64,000 bases of DNA from Herpetosiphon aurantiacus DSM 785 (GTDB lineage Bacteria > Chloroflexota > Chloroflexia > Chloroflexales > Herpetosiphonaceae): the NCBI GenBank assembly GCA_000018565.1, contig CP000875.1, positions 3,549,199-3,613,198 of the forward strand. Direction: 5' to 3'. Positions 32,926-44,291 of the stretch are shown here, one piece after another. Made by a program: the position numbers and the translations under genes. Position 1 is the stretch's first letter. Every line of letters starts with the position of its first letter. The notes under the pieces are model-generated. The model was not told the origin of the DNA. It saw only the letters and a list, made by a program, of their open reading frames with translations, and made no database searches.

Positions 32926-35900
32926 TTATTCGCCTTTCATTGCCATTGGTAAGAAAATCTTGTTTTGGGTTGGCTGAACCGTACTTGTAGCCGTCGCGGT
33001 TGGTGTTAGCGTTGGCGTTAGGGTCGCCGTTGCCGTTGCCGTCGCGGTCGCTGTGGCCGTAGCAATCGCAGTCGCAGTGACCGTCGGAATTGGTGTATTC
33101 GTTACGGTTGCAATCGCAGTTGCTGTCGCGGTTGCAATTGCTGTCGCCGTCGCTGTTGGCACATTGGTTGCCGTTGCCGTTGGCACATTGGTTGCCGTTG
33201 CCGTTGGCACATTGGTTGCCGTTGGTTCTGGCGTGTTGGTCGCTGTTGGCGTTGGCACATCGGTTGCCGTCGCGGTCGGAACATCAGTCGCCGTCGCCGT
33301 TGGCACGTCAGTCGCCGTCGCCGTTGGCACATCGGTCGCCGTCGCCGTTGGCACATCCGTTGCCGTCGCCGTTGGCACATCCGTTGCCGTCGCCGTTGGC
33401 ACGTCAGTCGCCGTCGGCTCCGGCGTATTCGTCATGGTTGGTTCGGGTGTATTGGTCGCCGTTGCCGTTGGCACATCGGTTGCCGTCGCCGTTGGCACGT
33501 CAGTCGCCGTCGGCTCTGGCGTATTCGTCATGGTTGGTTCGGGTGTATTGGTCGCCGTTGCCGTTGGCACATCCGTTGCCGTTGCAGTCGGGACATCGGT
33601 CGCTGTTGCAGTCGGGACATCGGTCGCTGTTGCAGTCGGGACATCGGTCGCTGTTGGTTCTGGCGTGTTGGTTGCGGTCGGTTCTGGCGTATTCGTCAGG
33701 GTTGGTTCGGGTGTATTGGTTGCTGCAGGAGCATCAAACACGATTGGGCTAGTACCATTAGCAAACTCGGTTGCGTTATCGTAGCTATCACCATCAGGGT
33801 TACCACTAGCACCATCATCACCAACTGAACTCAATGGATCTAAGCCATAATTTACTTCCCAGCCATCCGGCAAGCTGTCGTTATCACTATCGCTATCATT
33901 TGGATTGGTGTTGTTGGCAAATTCACCAGCATTACTCAAACCATCGTTATCAGGGTCGCCAGCGGCTCCATCATCACCAACTGAGCTCAATGGATCAAGG
34001 CTGTTGACAACTTCCCAACCATCGGGCAAGCCATCATTATCACTATCACTATCATTTGGATCAGTTCCAGCTGCGGCTTCCTGGCCATCGTTCAAACCGT
34101 CGTTATCACTGTCGGCATCTTGAGGATCGGTGTTGTTGGCAAATTCAGTAGCGTTGGTCGAACCATCACTATCAGGATCGCCAGCGGCTCCATTATTACC
34201 AACACTGCTCAATGGGTCGAGGCTGTTGGCAACTTCCCAACCATCGGGCAAGCCATCATTATCGCTATCACTGTCATTCGGATTTGTTCCAGCAGCGGCT
34301 TCCTGGCCATCGTTCAAACCGTCGTTATCGCTGTCGGCATCTTGGGGATTCGTGCCATTTTGATATTCTTGTAAGTTGGTCGAGCCATCATTGTCAGGAT
34401 CACCATTGGCTCCATTGCCTTCGGTTGTACTGGTTGGATTAAGATTATTGCTGATTTCCCAGCCATCAGGCAAGCCATCACCATCGGTATCAGCATTATT
34501 GGGGTTGGTTCCCAAACCAGCCTCTTGACCATCAGTCAGGCCATCGTTATCGCTATCAGCATCGTTGGGATCAGTGCCATTTTGATATTCTTGCAAGTTG
34601 GTCGAGCCATCGTTATCAGGGTCGCCAGCGGCTCCATCATCACCAACACTACTCAATGGATCGAGGCTGTTGACGACTTCCCAACCATCGGGCAAACCAT
34701 CGTTATCGCTATCACTATCATTCGGATTTGTGCCCGCGCTAATTTCAGCACCATCGTTCAGGCCATCGTTATCGCTGTCAGAATCCTGGGGATTGGTATT
34801 GTTGGCAAATTCAGCGCTATTATCCAAACCATCATTATCTGGATCACCAGCAGCATCGTTTGGATTTAGCGGATCAAGCCCGTTGCTCACTTCCCAACCA
34901 TCTGGCAAGCCATCATTATCAGTATCGCTGTCGTTTGGATTCGTACCAGCAGCGGCTTCTTGACCATCATTCAAGCCGTCATTATCGCTGTCGGTATCGT
35001 TCGGATTAGTGCTGTTGGCGAATTCAGCGGCGTTGTTTGAACCGTCATTATCAGGATCACCTGTTGCGCCATCATCACCAACACTGCTCAATGGGTCAAG
35101 GCTGTTGGCGACTTCCCATGCATCAGGCAAGCCATCATTATCAGTATCGCTGTCATTTGGATCAGTTCCGGCAGCGGCTTCTTGACCATCATTCAAGCCG
35201 TCATTATCGCTGTCGGCATCGTTTGGATCAGTATTGCTAGCAAATTCAGCGGCATTGTTTGAACCGTCATTATCAGGATCGCCTGCGGCTCCATCATCAC
35301 CAACGCTGCTCAATGGGTCAAGGCTGTTGGCTACTTCCCAACCATCGGGCAAACCATCGTTATCGCTGTCGGCATCATTTGGATCAGTTCCGGCAGCGGC
35401 TTCTGGACCATCGTTCAAGCCATCGTTATCGCTGTCGGCATCATTTGGATTGGTGCCTGCGGCAAACTCAGCGGCGTTGTTTGAGCCATCACCATCAGGA
35501 TCGCCAGCGGCTCCATCATCACCAACGCTGCTCAATGGGTCAAGGCCGTTGGCTACTTCCCAGCCATCGGGCAAGCCATCATTATCAGTATCACTGTCGT
35601 TTGGATCAGTTCCAGCAGCGGTTTCTTGACCATCATTCAAGCCGTCATTATCGCTGTCGGCATCGTTTGGATCAGTATTGCTAGCAAATTCAGCGGCATT
35701 GTTTGAACCGTCATTATCAGGATCGCCTGCGGCTCCATCATCACCAACACTACTCAATGGGTCAAGGCTGTTGGCTACTTCCCAACCATCGGGCAAACCA
35801 TCGTTATCGCTGTCACTGTCATTTGGATCAGTTCCGGCAGCGGCTTCTTGACCATCGTTCAAGCCGTCATTATCGCTGTCGGCATCATGAGGGTTGGTGC

Positions 35901-37110
35901 TATTTTGATATTCTTGCAAGTTGGTCGAGCCATCATTATCGGGGTCACCAGTAGCACCCTGGTTGCCAGTAGCATTCAATGGATTGAGACTATTCGAGAC
36001 TTCCCAGCCATCGGGCAAGCCATCACCATCGCTATCAGCATTGTTTGGATTTGTCCCCAAAGCAGCTTCAGCGCCATCATTCAAACCGTCATTATCACTA
36101 TCAGCATCATTTGGATGCGTACCAGCGGCAAATTCAGCAGCATTGTTTGAACCATCGTTATCGGGGTCACCAGCCGCACCATTGTTTCCTGTTGCATCCA
36201 ATGGATTTAGGCCATGATTGACTTCCCAGCCATCAGGTAGCCCATCGTTATCGCTATCGTTATCCAATGGATTTGTGCCCGCACTATCTTCGGCACCATC
36301 ATTCAAACCATCGTCATCACTATCAGGATCATTGGGATCGGTGCCATTCTGATATTCATCCAAATTACTGGAGCCATCATTATCGGGATCACCAGTCGCA
36401 CCAGTCGCACCAGTACCATTGTTTGGATTCAAGCCGTTATCAACTTCCCAACCATCGGGCAAGCCATCATTATCGCTATCTGAATCGTTGGGGTTGGTGC
36501 CATTGGTAATTTCTTCACCATCGGTCAAGCCATCATCATCACTATCTGGATCGAGGGGGTTAGTGCCATTGGTAATTTCATCAACATCATTCACCCCATC
36601 ATTATCGCTATCAGGGCGAAATGTTGTTGCTTCAACTGCATCAATTTGATATGCAGTCAATAAGGAAACAAAGCGCACGTACCGATAGGGAGTAGGACTT
36701 TGGGGATAATCAACTGTAGTCGTATAGATAGTACCAAGTGATAAACCAACAATATCTAATGATGACGAGGCAATCACTTGGCGGCTAGCATTCAGAAACT
36801 GAACGTTCGCTGCCAACTGCACGCCAATCCCGCCATAGTGCACCACTAGATCGCCAGTACCTTCTTCATTAGCACCCATATCGAGGGTCAGGTTTTGTCC
36901 GAGCAAACCAATCACTGTTGCTACAGTACCATTTGGTGCTCCAACAGAATTAGCAGCATTAACAATTAGACCACTAGTACTCGAATCAACCGCATTAGCG
37001 TAGGGAGTCTCTCCAGCAGCAGCGGCAGAGCGAACCATACCAAGGTGAAGAACCACGATTAAGGCAAGTAAAAGTCGCCCATAATTACGCCGAGACCGAT
37101 CGAAATTCAT
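32926..37110 (-). CDS. Giant secreted thrombospondin type 3 repeat protein
   Basis: A 1394-residue secreted protein with AGAGGAG before ATG 37110. A signal peptide ends near residue 32 (S-A-A-A-A-G). Residues about 35-165 form a beta-rich, discoidin-like domain. Residues about 168-1130 are calcium-binding repeats of the form D-x-D-x-D-G-L-x-D-G-x-E; they contain 13 copies of a 74-residue unit centred on D-G-L-P-D-G-W-E-V. Residues about 1130-1375 are a Thr/Pro tail (T-A-T-D-V-P-T-A units), and the chain ends in [10 protein letters not shown]. The acidic repeats should form a rigid, Ca-dependent rod, so a surface fibre, adhesin or sheath component is likely. Nearby glucanases share the tail form. 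Confidence 0.92.
32990..33730. repeat. Tandem short repeats encoding the Thr/Pro tail
   Basis: The 18- to 24-base unit GTTGGCACATCGGT[T/C]GCCGTCGC and variants recurs over 700 bases, with a TTCTGGCGT[G/A]TTGGT variant (P-E-P-T). It encodes the T-D-V-P-T-A-T-A tail on the minus strand. Confidence 0.85.
33780..36560. repeat. 13-copy array of about 222-base coding repeats
   Basis: The marker ATC[A/G]GGCAA[G/A]CCATC recurs with a period of 222 bases (for example 34021, 34243, 34465, 34687), with one unit nine bases shorter. Neighbouring copies in the middle of the array are almost identical, a sign of recent unequal exchange. It is a protein-coding array, not a CRISPR. Confidence 0.9.
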
Positions 37111-39622: not shown

Positions 39623-39656
39623 AAAAGCCTTGACAATTCAAATTGTCAAGGCTTTT
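39623..39656. terminator. Bidirectional Rho-independent terminator
   Basis: AAAAGCCTTGACAATT (39623-39638) pairs perfectly with 39641-39656, leaving a two-base gap. A-run on the left and T-run on the right let it serve both the cellulase gene (plus) and the minus-strand operon that ends at 39677. Confidence 0.9.
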
Positions 39657-39676: not shown

Positions 39677-39808
39677 CTAGCGACAACCACAGCTGCTCGC
39701 TTGGCTTGAACCACAACAGTTGGTTTTTTCATCGGCTGAGCAGCAGGTTGCTTGTTCTTCGGCTGAGCAGCAGTCGTTGTTCGATTTGGTGGTTTCGGTC
39801 GTTGGCAT
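39677..39808 (-). CDS. Cysteine-rich metallothionein-like peptide, 43 aa
   Basis: A short gene with a strong AAGGAG seven bases before ATG 39808 and stop TAG at 39677-39679. The product has 8 Cys in 43 residues, arranged as three near-repeats: D-C-C-S-A-E-E-Q-A-T, C-C-S-A-D-E-K-T-N, C-C-G-S-S-Q-A-S-S, then C-G-C-R. The acidic, Ser-rich spacers and absence of hydrophobic residues mean it is a small soluble metal or metalloid chelator, or a thiol scavenger, rather than a membrane peptide. It is the last gene of a minus-strand run with an ECF sigma factor and two flavoproteins, 85 bases after the sigma gene. TTGAA-N6-TTCAA stands in that gap (39835-39850). Confidence 0.8.
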   Translation of the reverse strand: MPTTETTKSNNDCCSAEEQATCCSADEKTNCCGSSQASSCGCR

Positions 39809-39893
39809 AATCGTTCTCCTTAACATAAATTCAGTTGAAGCAGTATTCAAGCGCTTCTACTATTAAAGACGGCCAATTTGCCAAAGGACGCAG

Positions 39894-40445
39894 TTATTCG
39901 AATTGAATTAATTGGCGATGGGGATGACAACCCAAAACATGGCCCGCAGGATCACGCTCCACCACACAACATTGATCAAACAATACCCGCAACTTTTGAC
40001 GCGCCCGCTGAACCCGTGATTTTGTGCCCGAAAATGATAAGCCCAACTCGCTACTCAAGGCTTGTTGGCTGATGCCCTCGAAGGCCGTGCGCTGCAAAAC
40101 CCAACGATCTTGGCTGGGTAAGCGATCCAACATTTGCTGCACACAAGCATCAAAGCCTGCTAAAATTGGTGGTTGCTGGTTGTTTTCGGCTGCCTGCATT
40201 TCATCAAGTGGGCTAGTTTCACGCCGCACACGATAATGATCGATTAATTTGCGCCGCGCAATTTGCCAAAGCCAAGCCTCGCTGCGCTCAGAATCCTGCA
40301 ATTGCGCAGATTTGAGATAGGCCGCTAGAAAAATATCTTGCAACAAATCTTCGACTGCTGCTTGATCGGCTAAACGAGCCTGCAAAAATCGCCGCAATGG
40401 CTGCGCTAGGTTTTGCCAAAGGTTAGTCAGATCAAGCTGGTTCAT
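39894..40445 (-). CDS. ECF sigma factor, SigZ-like, with C-terminal Cys cluster
   Basis: A 183-residue extracytoplasmic-function sigma factor starting at ATG 40445 in the ATGA overlap with the upstream monooxygenase gene. Region 2 has D-L-L-Q-D-I-F-L-A-A-Y and E-A-W-L-W-Q-I-A-R-R-K-L-I-D-H-Y-R; region 4 has the E-G-I-S-Q-Q-A-L-S-S-E-L-G-L-S helix-turn-helix. After region 4 a tail of about 25 residues carries Q-C-C-V-V-E-R and G-C-H-P-H, that is three Cys and two His. SigZ-type sigma factors have such a tail; sensing of a metal, metalloid or redox signal through it is an inference. No anti-sigma gene is adjacent, which fits direct sensing. Confidence 0.85.
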   Translation of the reverse strand: MNQLDLTNLWQNLAQPLRRFLQARLADQAAVEDLLQDIFLAAYLKSAQLQDSERSEAWLWQIARRKLIDHYRVRRETSPLDEMQAAENNQQPPILAGFDACVQQMLDRLPSQDRWVLQRTAFEGISQQALSSELGLSFSGTKSRVQRARQKLRVLFDQCCVVERDPAGHVLGCHPHRQLIQFE

Positions 40446-41536
40446 TGCCCCATCGCCCAGCGACAACAACCTGCTGGTTGCTGCATGCGAACTTGAATAT
40501 GGCGCACCACTCGCGATGCATCCGGCCCAACTCCACGCAACGTAGCCGAGGCAAAATTAGTTTGTTGCTCCAAGCCAACGTAATACAAGCCCTCAACTGT
40601 GGTGCTCACACCTGCCCGATGCAAGGGCAAGCCAGCTTGATCAAGCGCATTGAGGCCTTGCAAATAGCTCAAATGAGGTCGATAGCCAGTCGCAAACAAT
40701 ACTATGTCAACTGCTTCGGGCTGTCCATCAGCCCAAACTACACCCGTTGCGCTAAAACGTTCGAACATGGCTCGGCGTTGGGGTTGGTTTTGATTGATTT
40801 TTCTGCTGTACAGACCAGTATCGAGGACAATTCCTTGGGTTCGTTGCTGAATCCAACGGCCAACTCGCGTGTTGAGTGCCAGCCGATCAAAACCTGTCAG
40901 CCACCACCACCAATGGATATCACGGCCTGCAATCCGTTGGGCTTGAAAGCGAATTGGCTGGCGCGTAGCTAGGGTCACATCGGCAACTTGGGCCAGCTCG
41001 ATCGCAATTTGAATTGCCGAATTGCCTGCGCCAACCACCACAACCCGTTTGCCCACAAAATCTGCTGAATCGCGATAGCGAGCACTATGTAAAATCTTGC
41101 CTTGAAATGCAGCTTGGTTGGGCAATTCGGGCATAAATGGCCGCGCAAACGCTCCAGTTGCGGCAATAATTTGACCCGCATGAAATACTTGTCCCGCACT
41201 ACTTGTCAGGCGAAAGCCACCATTCTGCGGTTCGATCGTACTAATTGCCGTATTCGTCTGAATCGGTAAATTGAAATGTTCAGCATAGCGCTGCAAATAG
41301 GCCACAACAGTATCGCGCTGCGGGTAGCTATCGGCGGGCGCAGGGAAAGCCATGCCTGGCAAACTTGAAAATCGCGCAGGCGAAAACAAGCTCAAACTAT
41401 CGTAATAGGCGGGCCACGAGCCACCAACGCTGGCTTGAGCCTCGATAATTTGAAATGGAATTTTAGCTTGTTGCAGCCAATAGCCAGCCGCCAAGCCAGC
41501 CTGACCAGCCCCAATCACAATCGTTTGATTAGCCAT
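40442..41536 (-). CDS. ArsO-like flavin-dependent monooxygenase / oxidoreductase
   Basis: A 364-residue NAD(P)H- and FAD-binding protein. ATG 41536 overlaps the MFS stop by eight bases, with GAGG eight bases upstream. FAD motif V-I-G-A-G-Q-A-G-L-A-A-G-Y (residues about 6-18), A-S-V-G-G-S-W-P, then Y-D-S-L-x-L-F-S-P-A-R-F-S-S-L-P-G and Y-P-x-R-D-x-V-V-A-Y-L; NADPH motif V-V-V-G-A-G-N-S-A-I-Q-I-A; and L-F-A-T-G-Y-R. This set matches flavin monooxygenases found in arsenic-resistance operons (ArsO) and related YUCCA-like proteins. The substrate is not known. Confidence 0.85.
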   Translation of the reverse strand: MANQTIVIGAGQAGLAAGYWLQQAKIPFQIIEAQASVGGSWPAYYDSLSLFSPARFSSLPGMAFPAPADSYPQRDTVVAYLQRYAEHFNLPIQTNTAISTIEPQNGGFRLTSSAGQVFHAGQIIAATGAFARPFMPELPNQAAFQGKILHSARYRDSADFVGKRVVVVGAGNSAIQIAIELAQVADVTLATRQPIRFQAQRIAGRDIHWWWWLTGFDRLALNTRVGRWIQQRTQGIVLDTGLYSRKINQNQPQRRAMFERFSATGVVWADGQPEAVDIVLFATGYRPHLSYLQGLNALDQAGLPLHRAGVSTTVEGLYYVGLEQQTNFASATLRGVGPDASRVVRHIQVRMQQPAGCCRWAMGQ

Positions 41537-42755
41537 TACTTGCACCTCGAATCAAATAAATTGCCGCTGCGCTGATCAAACACATCAGCAACAGCAAGCC
41601 AAACAGCGGTTGATAGCTATGCAACAATCCCACCAACAGGCTAGCCAAAACTGGAGCCAAGGCCCGAGCTGTTGTGGTCAACAATGCCAACGCCCCGCTG
41701 ATACTGGCATATTGGGCTGTGCCAAAAACATCGGCAACCAATGCTGCTCGTGTCGGGGTCAACGCGCCAGATCCCGCCCCAAACAAGCAAGCAAACAGCA
41801 GTAGCCCTGTCACATTGGGCACAAACAGGAAGATGGCAAACGCAGCACTTTGCAGCAAACACAACATCCATGCTAATTGGACTTGGGGCCAACGTCGCCC
41901 AACACTTCCAATCACAATTCGGCTGGGAATTTGCGAACCACCCAGCAAGGCCACAGCCAAGGCTTGAATCTCTGGGGCATAGCCTTGGGCTTGAATCGCT
42001 GAAATCAAATGCACGCCTAAGGTGAATGTTGCCATCGTGGTCAGGCCAAAAGCCAGCGCCAACCACCAAAATGAGCTTGCTCGAATGGCATTTCCCAACG
42101 ACATCGAAGGCTGAATCGTGGGATTTGGCGTAACGGTTGCCACTGCCAGCGATCCGCCATCAGGCAATAAGCCCAAATCGGCGGGCTTACCACGCAATAC
42201 CAAGCCATGCAACGGAATCGTTAGCACTGCCAAAATCGCTGCCAGCCACAGCAACACCTCGCGCCAATTCAGTGTGCCGAGCAATCGCGTAACTAAGGGC
42301 ACATATACGACGCTGGCCAAGCCACCGCCAACCGTCAAAATTGTCAGGGCATGTTGGCGTTTTTGCTGAAACCACGTTGCCACCACGGCAAACGCTGGCT
42401 CATATAAAATTGCCGCCATCGCCAAACCCAAGCCAGCCCAAATCAGATACCAAGCCAAGAGCGATTGAACATTGGCCCATGCCACCACCAAAATTGCCGC
42501 CAAACATGAGCCAAGTGTCATCAAACCGCGTGCGCCATGCTGGTCGAGCCAGCGGCCAACGGGCAAAGCCACAATTCCCGAAATAAACAAGGCCAGCGAA
42601 AATCCACCCGTAAAATGGGCTTGCGACCAACCCAACTCACGCTGCATCGGGGTCAAGAGCACGCTAAATGCGTAGTAAATCACGCCCCACGAAGTCATCT
42701 CGGTAAATCCCAGCATGCTCACAATCCACCAGCCATAAAACGGGCTTCGCCGCAT
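41529..42755 (-). CDS. MFS transporter
   Basis: A 408-residue major facilitator transporter with 12 hydrophobic segments. ATG 42755 follows AAGGA by eight bases. The N-terminal F-Y-G-W-W-I-V start and the G-R-W-L-D-Q-H-G-A-R loop between helices 2 and 3 are those of the OFA/monocarboxylate-type and related MFS groups. It lies between two flavoprotein genes in one run, with overlap to the next gene, so it probably exports the product or substrate of those enzymes. Members of this group sit in some actinobacterial arsenic islands, as I recall. Confidence 0.87.
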   Translation of the reverse strand: MRRSPFYGWWIVSMLGFTEMTSWGVIYYAFSVLLTPMQRELGWSQAHFTGGFSLALFISGIVALPVGRWLDQHGARGLMTLGSCLAAILVVAWANVQSLLAWYLIWAGLGLAMAAILYEPAFAVVATWFQQKRQHALTILTVGGGLASVVYVPLVTRLLGTLNWREVLLWLAAILAVLTIPLHGLVLRGKPADLGLLPDGGSLAVATVTPNPTIQPSMSLGNAIRASSFWWLALAFGLTTMATFTLGVHLISAIQAQGYAPEIQALAVALLGGSQIPSRIVIGSVGRRWPQVQLAWMLCLLQSAAFAIFLFVPNVTGLLLFACLFGAGSGALTPTRAALVADVFGTAQYASISGALALLTTTARALAPVLASLLVGLLHSYQPLFGLLLLMCLISAAAIYLIRGASNG

Positions 42756-42800
42756 AACCAAAATCCTTCAGCATTGCAAAAACGATGTTAAGCGGCCATT

Positions 42801-44105
42801 CTACAACTGCAAAAGAATCTCGCTGCGGGTTGGAGTTGTACCACAGCAGGCTTCGCCACCGAATTGGGTTTTGCAAACGCCAGTTTCTGGCAGCACCAAC
42901 TGCACCTCACGCGCCGCTTGCCAATCGCCAACCAGCGCTGCCACCACCGAGCGTACTTGCTCATAGCCTGTGCGCATGAGGAAGGTTGGAGCGCGACCAT
43001 AGCTTTTCATGCCCACAATATAGAAATTTGGCTCGGGCTGCTGCAATTCTTCTGCGCCGTGTGGGCGCACCGTGCCGCAACTATGCTCATTTGGATCAAT
43101 CAAGGGGGCTAAAACCCGTGGACTTTCGACTGCCGCATCAAGATCTAAACGAATTTCACTGAGCATGCTTAAATCTGGGCGAAAACCTGTGGTTGCGATT
43201 AATTGATCAAAGCCTGTTAATTGGCGCTCACCTGCCTGCAAGTCAAGTTTGCCTTCAGCCTGAGTAATGCGCTCAATACCAAAGCCTGTAACCAGTTTAA
43301 AGCGCCCGCTTGCCACTAATTGCTCAACCCGACCACCTAAAAGGCCGCGTTGGACTAATTGATCATTAGCTCCGCCGCCATATAAAGCTGCATCAACCTG
43401 CCCACGCCGCATAATCCAAGTAACGCTGGTTTCAGGTGCTTGCTCAGCCAATTCAGCTAGATCGAGCAAGGCATTGAAGGCTGAATGGCCGCTACCGACG
43501 ACCGCCACCGAGCGATTGGCATAACGAGCGCGATCATTGCCCAAAATGTCGGGGATGCCATAGTAAATTTGGTTGTTGGCCGCTGTTTCGCCCAAGGCTG
43601 GAACCCCTGCCACGCCCAAGGGATTCGGGTTGCGATAGGTTCCTGAAGCATCAATCACTGCTTTGGCATAGATTTGGTGGGTTGCACCAACAGTTTCAAT
43701 CGTCAGCACAAATGGCGTGGTGGCGCGTCCAGCATTCTTCAATTTATCTAAGCCCAAACGGGTAATGGCCACAACTTTGCTGTTGAACTTTAAATGGAGC
43801 TGAATTTGCGGCAATTGAGCTAAAGGCTGCAAATAATCGCGTACTAATTCTGCACCAGTTGGAAATTCGGCCAAATTGGGAGTTTGCCAGCCTGCACCAA
43901 TCAAAAGCTGCTCCGCCACAGGATCGATATTAAATTCCCAAGCCGAGAATAAGCGTACATGGCCCCAACGCTGCACCGAATCGGCGACCCGTGAGCCTGC
44001 CTCAAAAATAATCGGCGTTTCGTTACGGGCCAACAAATGGGCAGCCGCCGCCAAACCAACTGGCCCCGACCCGATCACCGCTACTGGTAATTGCGCAAAA
44101 TCCAT
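42801..44105 (-). CDS. FAD/NAD(P)-binding flavoprotein, second of the operon
   Basis: A 434-residue flavoprotein with ATG 44105 after a GGGGG stretch. FAD motif V-A-V-I-G-S-G-P-V-G-L-A-A-A-A-H-L (residues 8-24), W-G-H-V-R-L-F-S-A-W-E-F-N, then V-I-D-A-S-G-T-Y-R-N-P-N-P-L-G and NADPH motif V-A-V-V-G-S-G-H-S-A-F-N-A-L. The C-terminal segment has V-G-M-K-S-Y-G-R-A-P-T-F and ends with several Cys (V-C-K-T-Q-F-G-G-E-A-C-C). Similar proteins are known to me from actinobacterial ars clusters. It is the first gene of the five-gene run, with a palindrome group upstream. The C-terminal Cys pair is unusual for a plain monooxygenase. Confidence 0.82.
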   Translation of the reverse strand: MDFAQLPVAVIGSGPVGLAAAAHLLARNETPIIFEAGSRVADSVQRWGHVRLFSAWEFNIDPVAEQLLIGAGWQTPNLAEFPTGAELVRDYLQPLAQLPQIQLHLKFNSKVVAITRLGLDKLKNAGRATTPFVLTIETVGATHQIYAKAVIDASGTYRNPNPLGVAGVPALGETAANNQIYYGIPDILGNDRARYANRSVAVVGSGHSAFNALLDLAELAEQAPETSVTWIMRRGQVDAALYGGGANDQLVQRGLLGGRVEQLVASGRFKLVTGFGIERITQAEGKLDLQAGERQLTGFDQLIATTGFRPDLSMLSEIRLDLDAAVESPRVLAPLIDPNEHSCGTVRPHGAEELQQPEPNFYIVGMKSYGRAPTFLMRTGYEQVRSVVAALVGDWQAAREVQLVLPETGVCKTQFGGEACCGTTPTRSEILLQL

Positions 44106-44128: not shown

Positions 44129-44291
44129 ATTGAAAATTTTCAATATAAAACCCGAAAGAAAATCCATCAGGCTGATGGATAGATTGAAAATTTTCGATTG
44201 AAATCTGGTAAAAATGCGCTAGCCCTTTTGTGGCTAACGTGCACGAATTGGCTGTTGCAGCAGCATAGCATAGAGATTGAAAAAAATCAAT
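44129..44291 (-). promoter_or_regulatory. Three iterated ATTGA-N6-TCAAT-type dyads
   Basis: 44129-44144 (ATTGAAAATTTTCAAT) is a perfect 16-base palindrome. 44183-44198 is the same but for one base (TCGAT). 44276-44291 keeps the outer ATTGA and TCAAT around six A. They lie 24 to 186 bases upstream of the flavoprotein start, and 93 or more bases before the plus-strand gene at 44384. CCATCAG-G-CTGATGG (44164-44178) is a further hairpin. Size and spacing fit a dimeric repressor such as an ArsR-type protein; the regulator is not in the window. Confidence 0.5.

Follow-up and report, generated by a model that had tools for sequence, protein, structure and literature searches.

How is a set of metal(loid) detoxification genes controlled when no repressor gene lies beside it, and why does this set include its own sigma factor? 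These questions are raised by a five-gene locus in a 64,000-nucleotide window of the chromosome of the soil bacterium Herpetosiphon aurantiacus DSM 785 (Chloroflexota; CP000875.1, positions 3,549,199 to 3,613,198). A sequence-only reading had described it as an operon of two flavoproteins, an MFS exporter, a Cys-tailed ECF sigma factor and a metallothionein-like peptide, and this observation held when we re-examined the locus. With ATG starts, the five genes, here called A to E (Table 1), are separated by 45 nt between A and B and 85 nt between D and E, whereas B and C overlap by 8 nt and C and D by 4 nt (ATGA). The open reading frames initially listed for E (from 39850) and D (from 40469) start too far upstream.

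Table 1. Features of the Herpetosiphon operon and its flanks, in window coordinates.
Feature	Position	Strand	Product or sequence	Details
Box 3	44276..44291		ArsR-type operator box	ATTGAAAAAAATCAAT
Box 2	44183..44198		ArsR-type operator box	ATTGAAAATTTTCGAT
Box 1	44129..44144		ArsR-type operator box	ATTGAAAATTTTCAAT; perfect palindrome, 24 nt before the first start codon
Gene A	42801..44105	-	ArsV-like FAD/NADPH flavoprotein	434 aa; Cys-rich disordered C-tail ending in ...GVCKTQFGGEACCG
Gene B	41529..42755	-	ArsK-like MFS exporter
Gene C	40442..41536	-	ArsO-like flavin monooxygenase
Gene D	39894..40445	-	SigZ-like ECF sigma factor	183 aa; C-terminal tail with 3 Cys (QCCVVERDPAGHVLGC)
Element	39866..39892	-	Putative SigZ-dependent promoter in front of gene E	TGCGTCC-N14-CGTCTT
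Gene E	39677..39808	-	Cys-rich peptide	43 aa, 8 Cys (CCx7CCx7CCx7CxC)
Terminator	39623..39656	-	Intrinsic terminator after gene E	Perfect hairpin with a 15-pair stem plus T-run

To ask whether this arrangement was more than chance, we compared the six Herpetosiphon genomes. The order A-B-C-D with E was conserved in five of them, with a transposon between D and E in one. The sixth (G004) has lost A-C but keeps the promoter with its boxes, the sigma gene, the element and the peptide gene, D and E being intact. D is under purifying selection (dN/dS 0.10-0.21, and near 0.15 in G004). E is conserved in all six genomes as a peptide of 28-43 aa with its Cys pairs kept. Lack of co-occurrence in other genomes had been named beforehand as a condition that would refute the proposal; it was not observed, although the full five-gene set with E is confined to Herpetosiphon.

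The identities of the encoded proteins rest on profile searches, several of which fell below curated thresholds, and we therefore use the suffix '-like'. A matched Pyr_redox_3, and no ArsV model was among the NCBIfam matches; its 51-59% identical relatives lie in ars islands of many phyla. Its AlphaFold2 model (pLDDT 83) had YpdA and N-hydroxylating/FMO monooxygenases as best folds. For B, the best family was ArsK (NF033733), with 158.2 bits against a cut-off of 400, and B is next to A in many loci. C matched ArsO (NF040505) over its full length with 282.2 bits against a cut-off of 425 and had FMO-type PDB relatives. D reached 163.5 bits against the SigZ cut-off of 168.65 (TIGR02959), with a match covering profile positions 1-166 of 170, including the C-terminal CC segment. 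E had no Pfam or NCBIfam match at E 0.1, and only its high Cys content recalls metallothioneins. E nevertheless resembles the Cys-rich tail of an A homolog (locus L008), with 16 of 30 positions identical and all 8 Cys in register (permutation p 0.001 for non-Cys positions). As this was the best of 94 homologs, the idea that E is an exact copy of such a tail was not retained and the resemblance is only suggestive.

Which metal(loid) is involved, and what regulates the operon? As the sequence-only reading had stated, arsR, arsC, acr3 and arsM are absent from the locus, and ACR3 is absent from genome G000. However, arsR, arsN2 and arsM are present elsewhere in the genome, 3.4 Mb away, and share the operator-like motif of the operon. 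The 16-bp palindrome ATYGAW6TCRAT occurs in only six places in the 6.8-Mb genome: three upstream of A and one each before arsR (C1:144913-145269), arsN2 and arsM. A pattern one base shorter (WTTGAAAWTTTCAAW) gave unrelated sites. The boxes are conserved in all six Herpetosiphon genomes, where, by our tally, 33 of 38 hits lie at these two loci. In a genome of a sister genus (G007), the arsR ortholog (60% identical, the best match) lies directly upstream of A-B-C with three of the same boxes, although SigZ and E are absent there. Relatives of A and B also lie in ars islands of Ensifer (arsR-A-arsK), Pseudomonas, Sporosarcina, Micromonospora and others, and neighbors elsewhere include arsC, acr3, arsN1a, arsH, arsD and arsA. 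The metal(loid) is therefore almost certainly arsenic, and a standard ArsR most likely controls the operon in trans.

The new part is the sigma factor. In 26 genomes we found 23 arsM copies, 19 of which, by comparison with our list of SigZ genes, lie directly downstream of a SigZ gene; one locus (L248, genome G365) carries arsO-arsN1a-arsV-MFS-SigZ-arsM in a row. SigZ-like genes accompany ars genes in five phyla, being found in or near ars gene sets also in Verrucomicrobiota (L079), Actinomycetota (L280), Betaproteobacteria (L282, L284), Enterobacteriaceae (L287-L289) and Bacteroidota (L278). Chloroflexota genomes are not phylogenetically independent, however, and many of the SigZ-arsM pairs come from one family. 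Moreover, bona fide SigZ of Priestia and Vibrio, which score over the cut-off, and SigZ of Rhodococcus sp. DMU1 have no ars neighbors, which led us to reject arsenic as the role of the whole SigZ family.

A directional bipartite element, TGCGTCC-N14/15-CGTCT, follows or precedes sigZ. In 400 Chloroflexota genomes we counted 61 exact hits, 49 of them within 1.5 kb of sigZ (25 downstream on the same strand, 18 upstream on the same strand, 6 divergent). The element is present in 30 of 33 genomes with SigZ, the other three lacking the exact form, and in 7 of 367 others. Since it was found at SigZ loci, its closeness to sigZ is partly built in, and only the genome-wide specificity and the hits away from sigZ are independent evidence. 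Hits away from sigZ precede arsM (L321), arsV on a different contig (L322) and an arsP-like permease gene (L326), and Cys-peptide genes also carry it. In each of the six Herpetosiphon genomes the element is unique, and none was found in the arsM locus of the present genome, so that the regulon of this sigma factor would be a single gene.

These observations are best explained by a two-locus arsenic regulon, to which we assign a probability of roughly 0.74. In this view, ArsR represses the operon through the three boxes and is released by trivalent arsenic, probably including methylarsenite made by ArsM. A and C would then oxidize trivalent organoarsenicals or antimonite, B would export the product or substrate, and E, together with the tail of A, would bind thiophilic As(III) species; oxidation plus MFS export is the likely chemistry. 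The SigZ-like factor would direct RNA polymerase to the element in front of E, a coherent feed-forward step in which E is strongly made only when ArsR has been released and SigZ is present, possibly only when the Cys tail of SigZ is occupied. What the sequences themselves establish is the gene content, the shared boxes, the distant arsR-arsM locus, the arsR neighbor in the sister genus and the association of sigma, ars genes and element. ArsR binding and its release by As(III), the substrates, recognition of the element by SigZ, and metal binding by E and by the sigma tail are inferred, function resting on sequence only. The sequence-only interpretation was thus partly supported: it correctly proposed metal(loid) detoxification, and its flavoproteins transforming the substrate with the MFS protein exporting it fit the likely chemistry, but arsR and arsM are not missing from the system, and the primary inducible switch is probably ArsR rather than the sigma factor. 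Its proposals that the peptide acts as a buffer and that the sigma tail senses a metal(loid) or oxidized thiol remain possibilities only.

Among the alternatives, the most serious, although tentative, is that the sigma factor is itself the sensor, As(III) or MAs(III) bound by three or more tail thiols switching it on as copper does in CorE. Where sigZ carries its own element no ArsR would then be needed, and in Herpetosiphon ArsR would only supply the protein. All 16 sigma factors of our alignment not from Priestia or Vibrio carry at least 3 Cys (3-9) in the short tail although the body has few, and the Priestia SigZ tail has 2. In addition, elements precede sigZ in many Ktedonobacteria, giving a putative autoregulatory loop that needs an activity switch, and in CorE a 38-residue tail with 6 Cys controls activity (PMC3107203; PMC8999054). 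However, the CC pair is also present in Priestia SigZ, Vibrio SigZ has a Cys-containing tail too, and the CXC linker motif of CorE-like sigma factors is absent from D, whose body has a single Cys.

It is unlikely that the element is instead an operator or RNA signal for another factor, with SigZ working elsewhere. Part of the evidence is indeed proximity only, without a mapped transcription start, and in Klebsiella a weak variant overlaps a 14-bp inverted repeat. Nevertheless, the element is not palindromic, is always oriented toward a downstream gene near sigZ, has a fixed half-site spacing and a CGTC half like many ECF -10 boxes, and its presence follows that of SigZ across the 400 genomes. 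An ordinary ArsR operon with sigma and peptide as passive passengers, as the G007 arrangement might suggest, also appears improbable, given that G004 kept exactly the sigma, the element and the peptide and that the association recurs in five phyla. Vicinal thiols bind many soft metals, but copper, cadmium or disulfide stress as the target is very unlikely, since the partner genes of the shared regulon are arsR, arsN2 and arsM and the neighbors elsewhere are ars genes; no result favored it.

A broader reading, about as likely as not, is that a widespread group of SigZ-like ECF sigma factors forms a previously unrecognized class of arsenic-responsive regulators, present in at least five phyla and on over a thousand enterobacterial plasmids, with its own promoter controlling arsM, arsV, arsP-like and Cys-rich peptide genes and a C-terminal thiol tail that reads As(III)/MAs(III). 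Arsenic regulation in bacteria is described almost wholly through ArsR-type repressors. In the literature searched, no paper linked SigZ or an ECF sigma factor to arsM, two ECF reviews do not mention arsenic, and a review of arsenic resistance genes does not mention a sigma factor. A sigma factor recurring in or next to ars gene sets, with a defined candidate promoter, would add a second regulatory layer and give a function to part of the poorly characterized SigZ family, and the Cys-rich peptides with that promoter would be candidate arsenic-binding peptides.

Several known systems are close to this one. The ArsV plus ArsW/ArsK pathway of Ensifer adhaerens (oxidation and export of methylarsenite; cited in PMC10080717 and PMC11719878) also places a flavin-dependent enzyme next to an MFS exporter in an arsR-controlled operon, and an E. 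adhaerens plasmid relative of A, 53% identical, lies between arsR and arsK. In Herpetosiphon arsR is in trans, and an ArsO-like second monooxygenase, a sigma factor and a free Cys peptide are added. The metal-dependent CorE/CorE2 sigma factors (former ECF44/ECF238; PMC3107203, PMC8999054) share with D the absence of an adjacent anti-sigma gene, a Cys-rich C-terminal extension (3 of 29 tail residues in D, fewer than in CorE) and a link to metal defense genes, but the best family match of D is SigZ, the partner genes are for arsenic instead of copper/cadmium, and the promoter element is different. With SigZ of Bacillus (TIGR02959), D shares the family profile over nearly its full length and the CC pair after region 4. 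Finally, the Klebsiella and Salmonella plasmids inspected carry a SigZ-like gene inside an ars set, in the order arsR-arsH-sigma-arsD, with ArsH and ArsD instead of ArsV/ArsO and a weak variant of the element; this sigma gene, annotated only as sigma-70 family or hypothetical, occurs on 1,228 PLSDB records.

The five genes of the Herpetosiphon operon follow one another on the minus strand with a 45-nt gap, an 8-nt overlap, a 4-nt ATGA overlap and an 85-nt gap, and end at a strong terminator. The first gene product (A) is a Pyr_redox_3 flavoprotein. Its AlphaFold2 model (pLDDT 83) was closest to the bacillithiol reductase YpdA, followed by N-hydroxylating and FMO-type monooxygenases, and the last 29 residues, with the CC pair, were predicted to be unstructured. 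Profile searches showed that B is an MFS protein whose best family is ArsK, C is nearest to ArsO, and D is an ECF sigma factor nearest to SigZ, whereas E has 8 Cys in 43 residues and matched no known family. Since none of B, C and D reached the curated family cut-off, we refer to them as ArsK-like, ArsO-like and SigZ-like.

Upstream of A we found three copies of a 16-bp palindrome, ATYGA-W6-TCRAT. In the whole 6.8-Mb genome (G000) this pattern occurs at six places only, the three mentioned and three at a second locus, which holds arsM (above its family cut-off), arsN2 and arsR, with one box before each gene. In six Herpetosiphon genomes, 33 of 38 box hits lie at these two loci by our tally, and the boxes are among the best-conserved parts of the promoter. 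In a genome of the sister genus (G007), the best match to this arsR (60% identity) lies directly upstream of A-B-C, with three of the same boxes. The remark of the sequence-only reading that arsR and arsM are missing is, therefore, true of the locus but not of the system. ACR3 is absent from the G000 genome and present in only one of the six Herpetosiphon genomes, which makes the A-B-C route a likely main defence. Relatives of A are common in ars islands: we found the order arsR-A-arsK beside arsenite oxidase genes on an Ensifer adhaerens plasmid, and relatives next to arsN1, arsD, arsA, arsC, trxB and acr3 in Pseudomonas, Sporosarcina and Arthrobacter. Published ArsV and ArsW/ArsK oxidise and export methylarsenite (cited in PMC10080717 and PMC11719878), although the identification of A as ArsV remains an inference.

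Of 94 homologs of A, 88 have a CC pair in the last 90 residues, and the Cys content of the tail is about 14 times that of the body. In genome G021, the fused tail CCSSSVLATCCEANVKDTCCGATPAATCGC matches peptide E CCSAEEQATCCSADEKTNCCGSSQASSCGC with all eight Cys in register; however, this was the best of many tails and the resemblance is only suggestive. Peptide E is kept in all six Herpetosiphon genomes, shortened in three of them but with the CC pairs kept. In H. giganteus (G002), a TnpB-like transposon sits between the sigma gene and the gene of peptide E, downstream of the candidate promoter element described below (see the table for coordinates).

The sigma factor is the novel part of this system. 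Among 400 Chloroflexota genomes, 26 have a SigZ over the family cut-off. We read thirty such loci and found that SigZ is followed by arsM in 19, and that the arsN1a-arsV-MFS genes lie up to 5 kb upstream in 7. In the 26 SigZ genomes we detected 23 arsM copies, of which 19, as shown by comparison of coordinates, lie directly downstream of SigZ. One island (L248) has arsO, arsN1a, arsV, MFS, SigZ and arsM in a row. Outside the phylum, SigZ-like genes stand before arsV-MFS in Roseibacillus, behind arsR-arsV-MFS in Rhodococcus opacus B4, between acr3 and a permease in Ideonella and Comamonas, near arsC-acr3 in Hymenobacter, and between arsH and arsD on Klebsiella and Salmonella plasmids. The last of these sigma genes, whose best family match is also SigZ, below the cut-off, is present on 1,228 PLSDB plasmid records, in three of which (L287, L288 and L289) we inspected the neighbourhood, and is annotated as 'sigma-70 family', 'SigL' or hypothetical. 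By contrast, SigZ of Priestia and Vibrio, over the cut-off, is not near ars genes, so that arsenic is the role of a part of the family at most.

Directly after the sigma gene lies the candidate promoter element TGCGTCC-TTT-N-CGTCTT, with the two CGTC cores 19 bases apart in Herpetosiphon or 20 bases apart in the other loci read. It is conserved from Herpetosiphon through Ktedonobacteria and other Chloroflexota families to Roseibacillus, whereas Ideonella, Comamonas and Klebsiella have degenerate versions with the same spacing (none of 5,000 shuffles as good, p 0.0006 and p 0.006). On the three enterobacterial plasmids, an inverted repeat (TTTACCTCAGTGT...ACACTGAGGTAAA) overlaps this weak SigZ-type element in front of arsD. 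We counted the exact pattern in the 400 Chloroflexota genomes and obtained 61 hits, against about 9 for the reversed pattern. Of these, 49 are within 1.5 kb of SigZ: 25 downstream on the same strand, 18 upstream on the same strand, and 6 upstream and divergent. Thirty of 33 SigZ genomes have the element, against 7 of 367 others (Fisher 4e-35), although the genomes are not independent and the p value overstates the case.

Because the element was found at SigZ loci, the informative hits are those away from sigZ. Leaving aside six further hits in genomes G011, G034, G170, G191, G286 and G320, they precede an arsM on another contig (locus L321), arsV on another contig (L322), arsV in the same island (L327), an arsP-like permease gene (L326), and an arsM-like remnant in G144, a genome without SigZ match in the profile search (L324), while the one in G270:C233 (L323) has no recognisable target. 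The divergent hits precede CCG-repeat peptides of 115-116 residues (loci L255, L260 and L274). More generally, families of 80-116-aa peptides with repeated CCG motifs stand in actinobacterial and Ktedonobacterial ars islands (L046, L060, L255 and L260), without any NCBIfam match for the two tested, and in Ktedonobacteria they carry the SigZ-type element. At two other loci (L164 and L165), an AhpD-like protein with a Cys-rich tail (SCGC, ACGC, ACC) follows SigZ and its element directly. In Herpetosiphon the only copy of the element precedes peptide E. In the Herpetosiphon genome G004, a deletion removed A-C but left the ArsR boxes, the sigma gene, the element and E, and the sigma factor is still under purifying selection.

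These observations suggest a model in which the release of ArsR would turn on A-B-C-D, and D would then drive E from its own promoter. In Ktedonobacteria, SigZ appears to drive itself, arsM and Cys peptides. The tail of D, with three Cys, may sense arsenic as the CorE tail senses copper (PMC3107203, PMC8999054), but the CorE linker motif is missing and this step remains a possibility only. Whereas gene content, gene order and the distribution of the boxes and the element were read directly from the sequences, promoter use, DNA binding, enzyme substrates and metal binding are all inferred. In the partial literature that we searched, no paper connected SigZ or an ECF sigma factor with arsM, although earlier mention elsewhere cannot be excluded, and one transcriptome paper lists the gene between arsH and arsD of a Klebsiella plasmid only as hypothetical. 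At another locus (L186), a 437-aa protein divergent from arsR carries an ArsR-type HTH in its second half (residues 255-323), with no further family assigned. Finally, the Herpetosiphon window also encodes a 1394-aa protein made of DSDNDGL-type repeats (thrombospondin type 3 like) and a long threonine-proline stalk.

Coordinates of the loci and features mentioned in the text
Feature	Sequence or locus	Position
Herpetosiphon window	G000:C1	3549199-3613198
Three boxes at the arsM, arsN2 and arsR locus	G000:C1	144400-145317
DSDNDGL-repeat protein	window	32926-37110
TnpB-like transposon, H. giganteus (G002)	L154	13100-15110
SigZ-like sigma gene between arsH and arsD, Klebsiella/Salmonella plasmid	L287	1601-2146
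SigZ-like sigma gene between arsH and arsD, Klebsiella/Salmonella plasmid	L288	3501-4046
SigZ-like sigma gene between arsH and arsD, Klebsiella/Salmonella plasmid	L289	3501-4046
Inverted repeat overlapping the weak SigZ-type element	L287-L289	about 30-75 nt after the sigma stop codon
CCG-repeat peptide	L046	5585-5833
CCG-repeat peptide	L060	5552-5803
CCG-repeat peptide	L255	6654-7004
CCG-repeat peptide	L260	near 8790
AhpD-like protein with Cys-rich tail	L164	7546-7953
AhpD-like protein with Cys-rich tail	L165	7462-7977
Protein with ArsR-type HTH, divergent from arsR	L186	8385-9698
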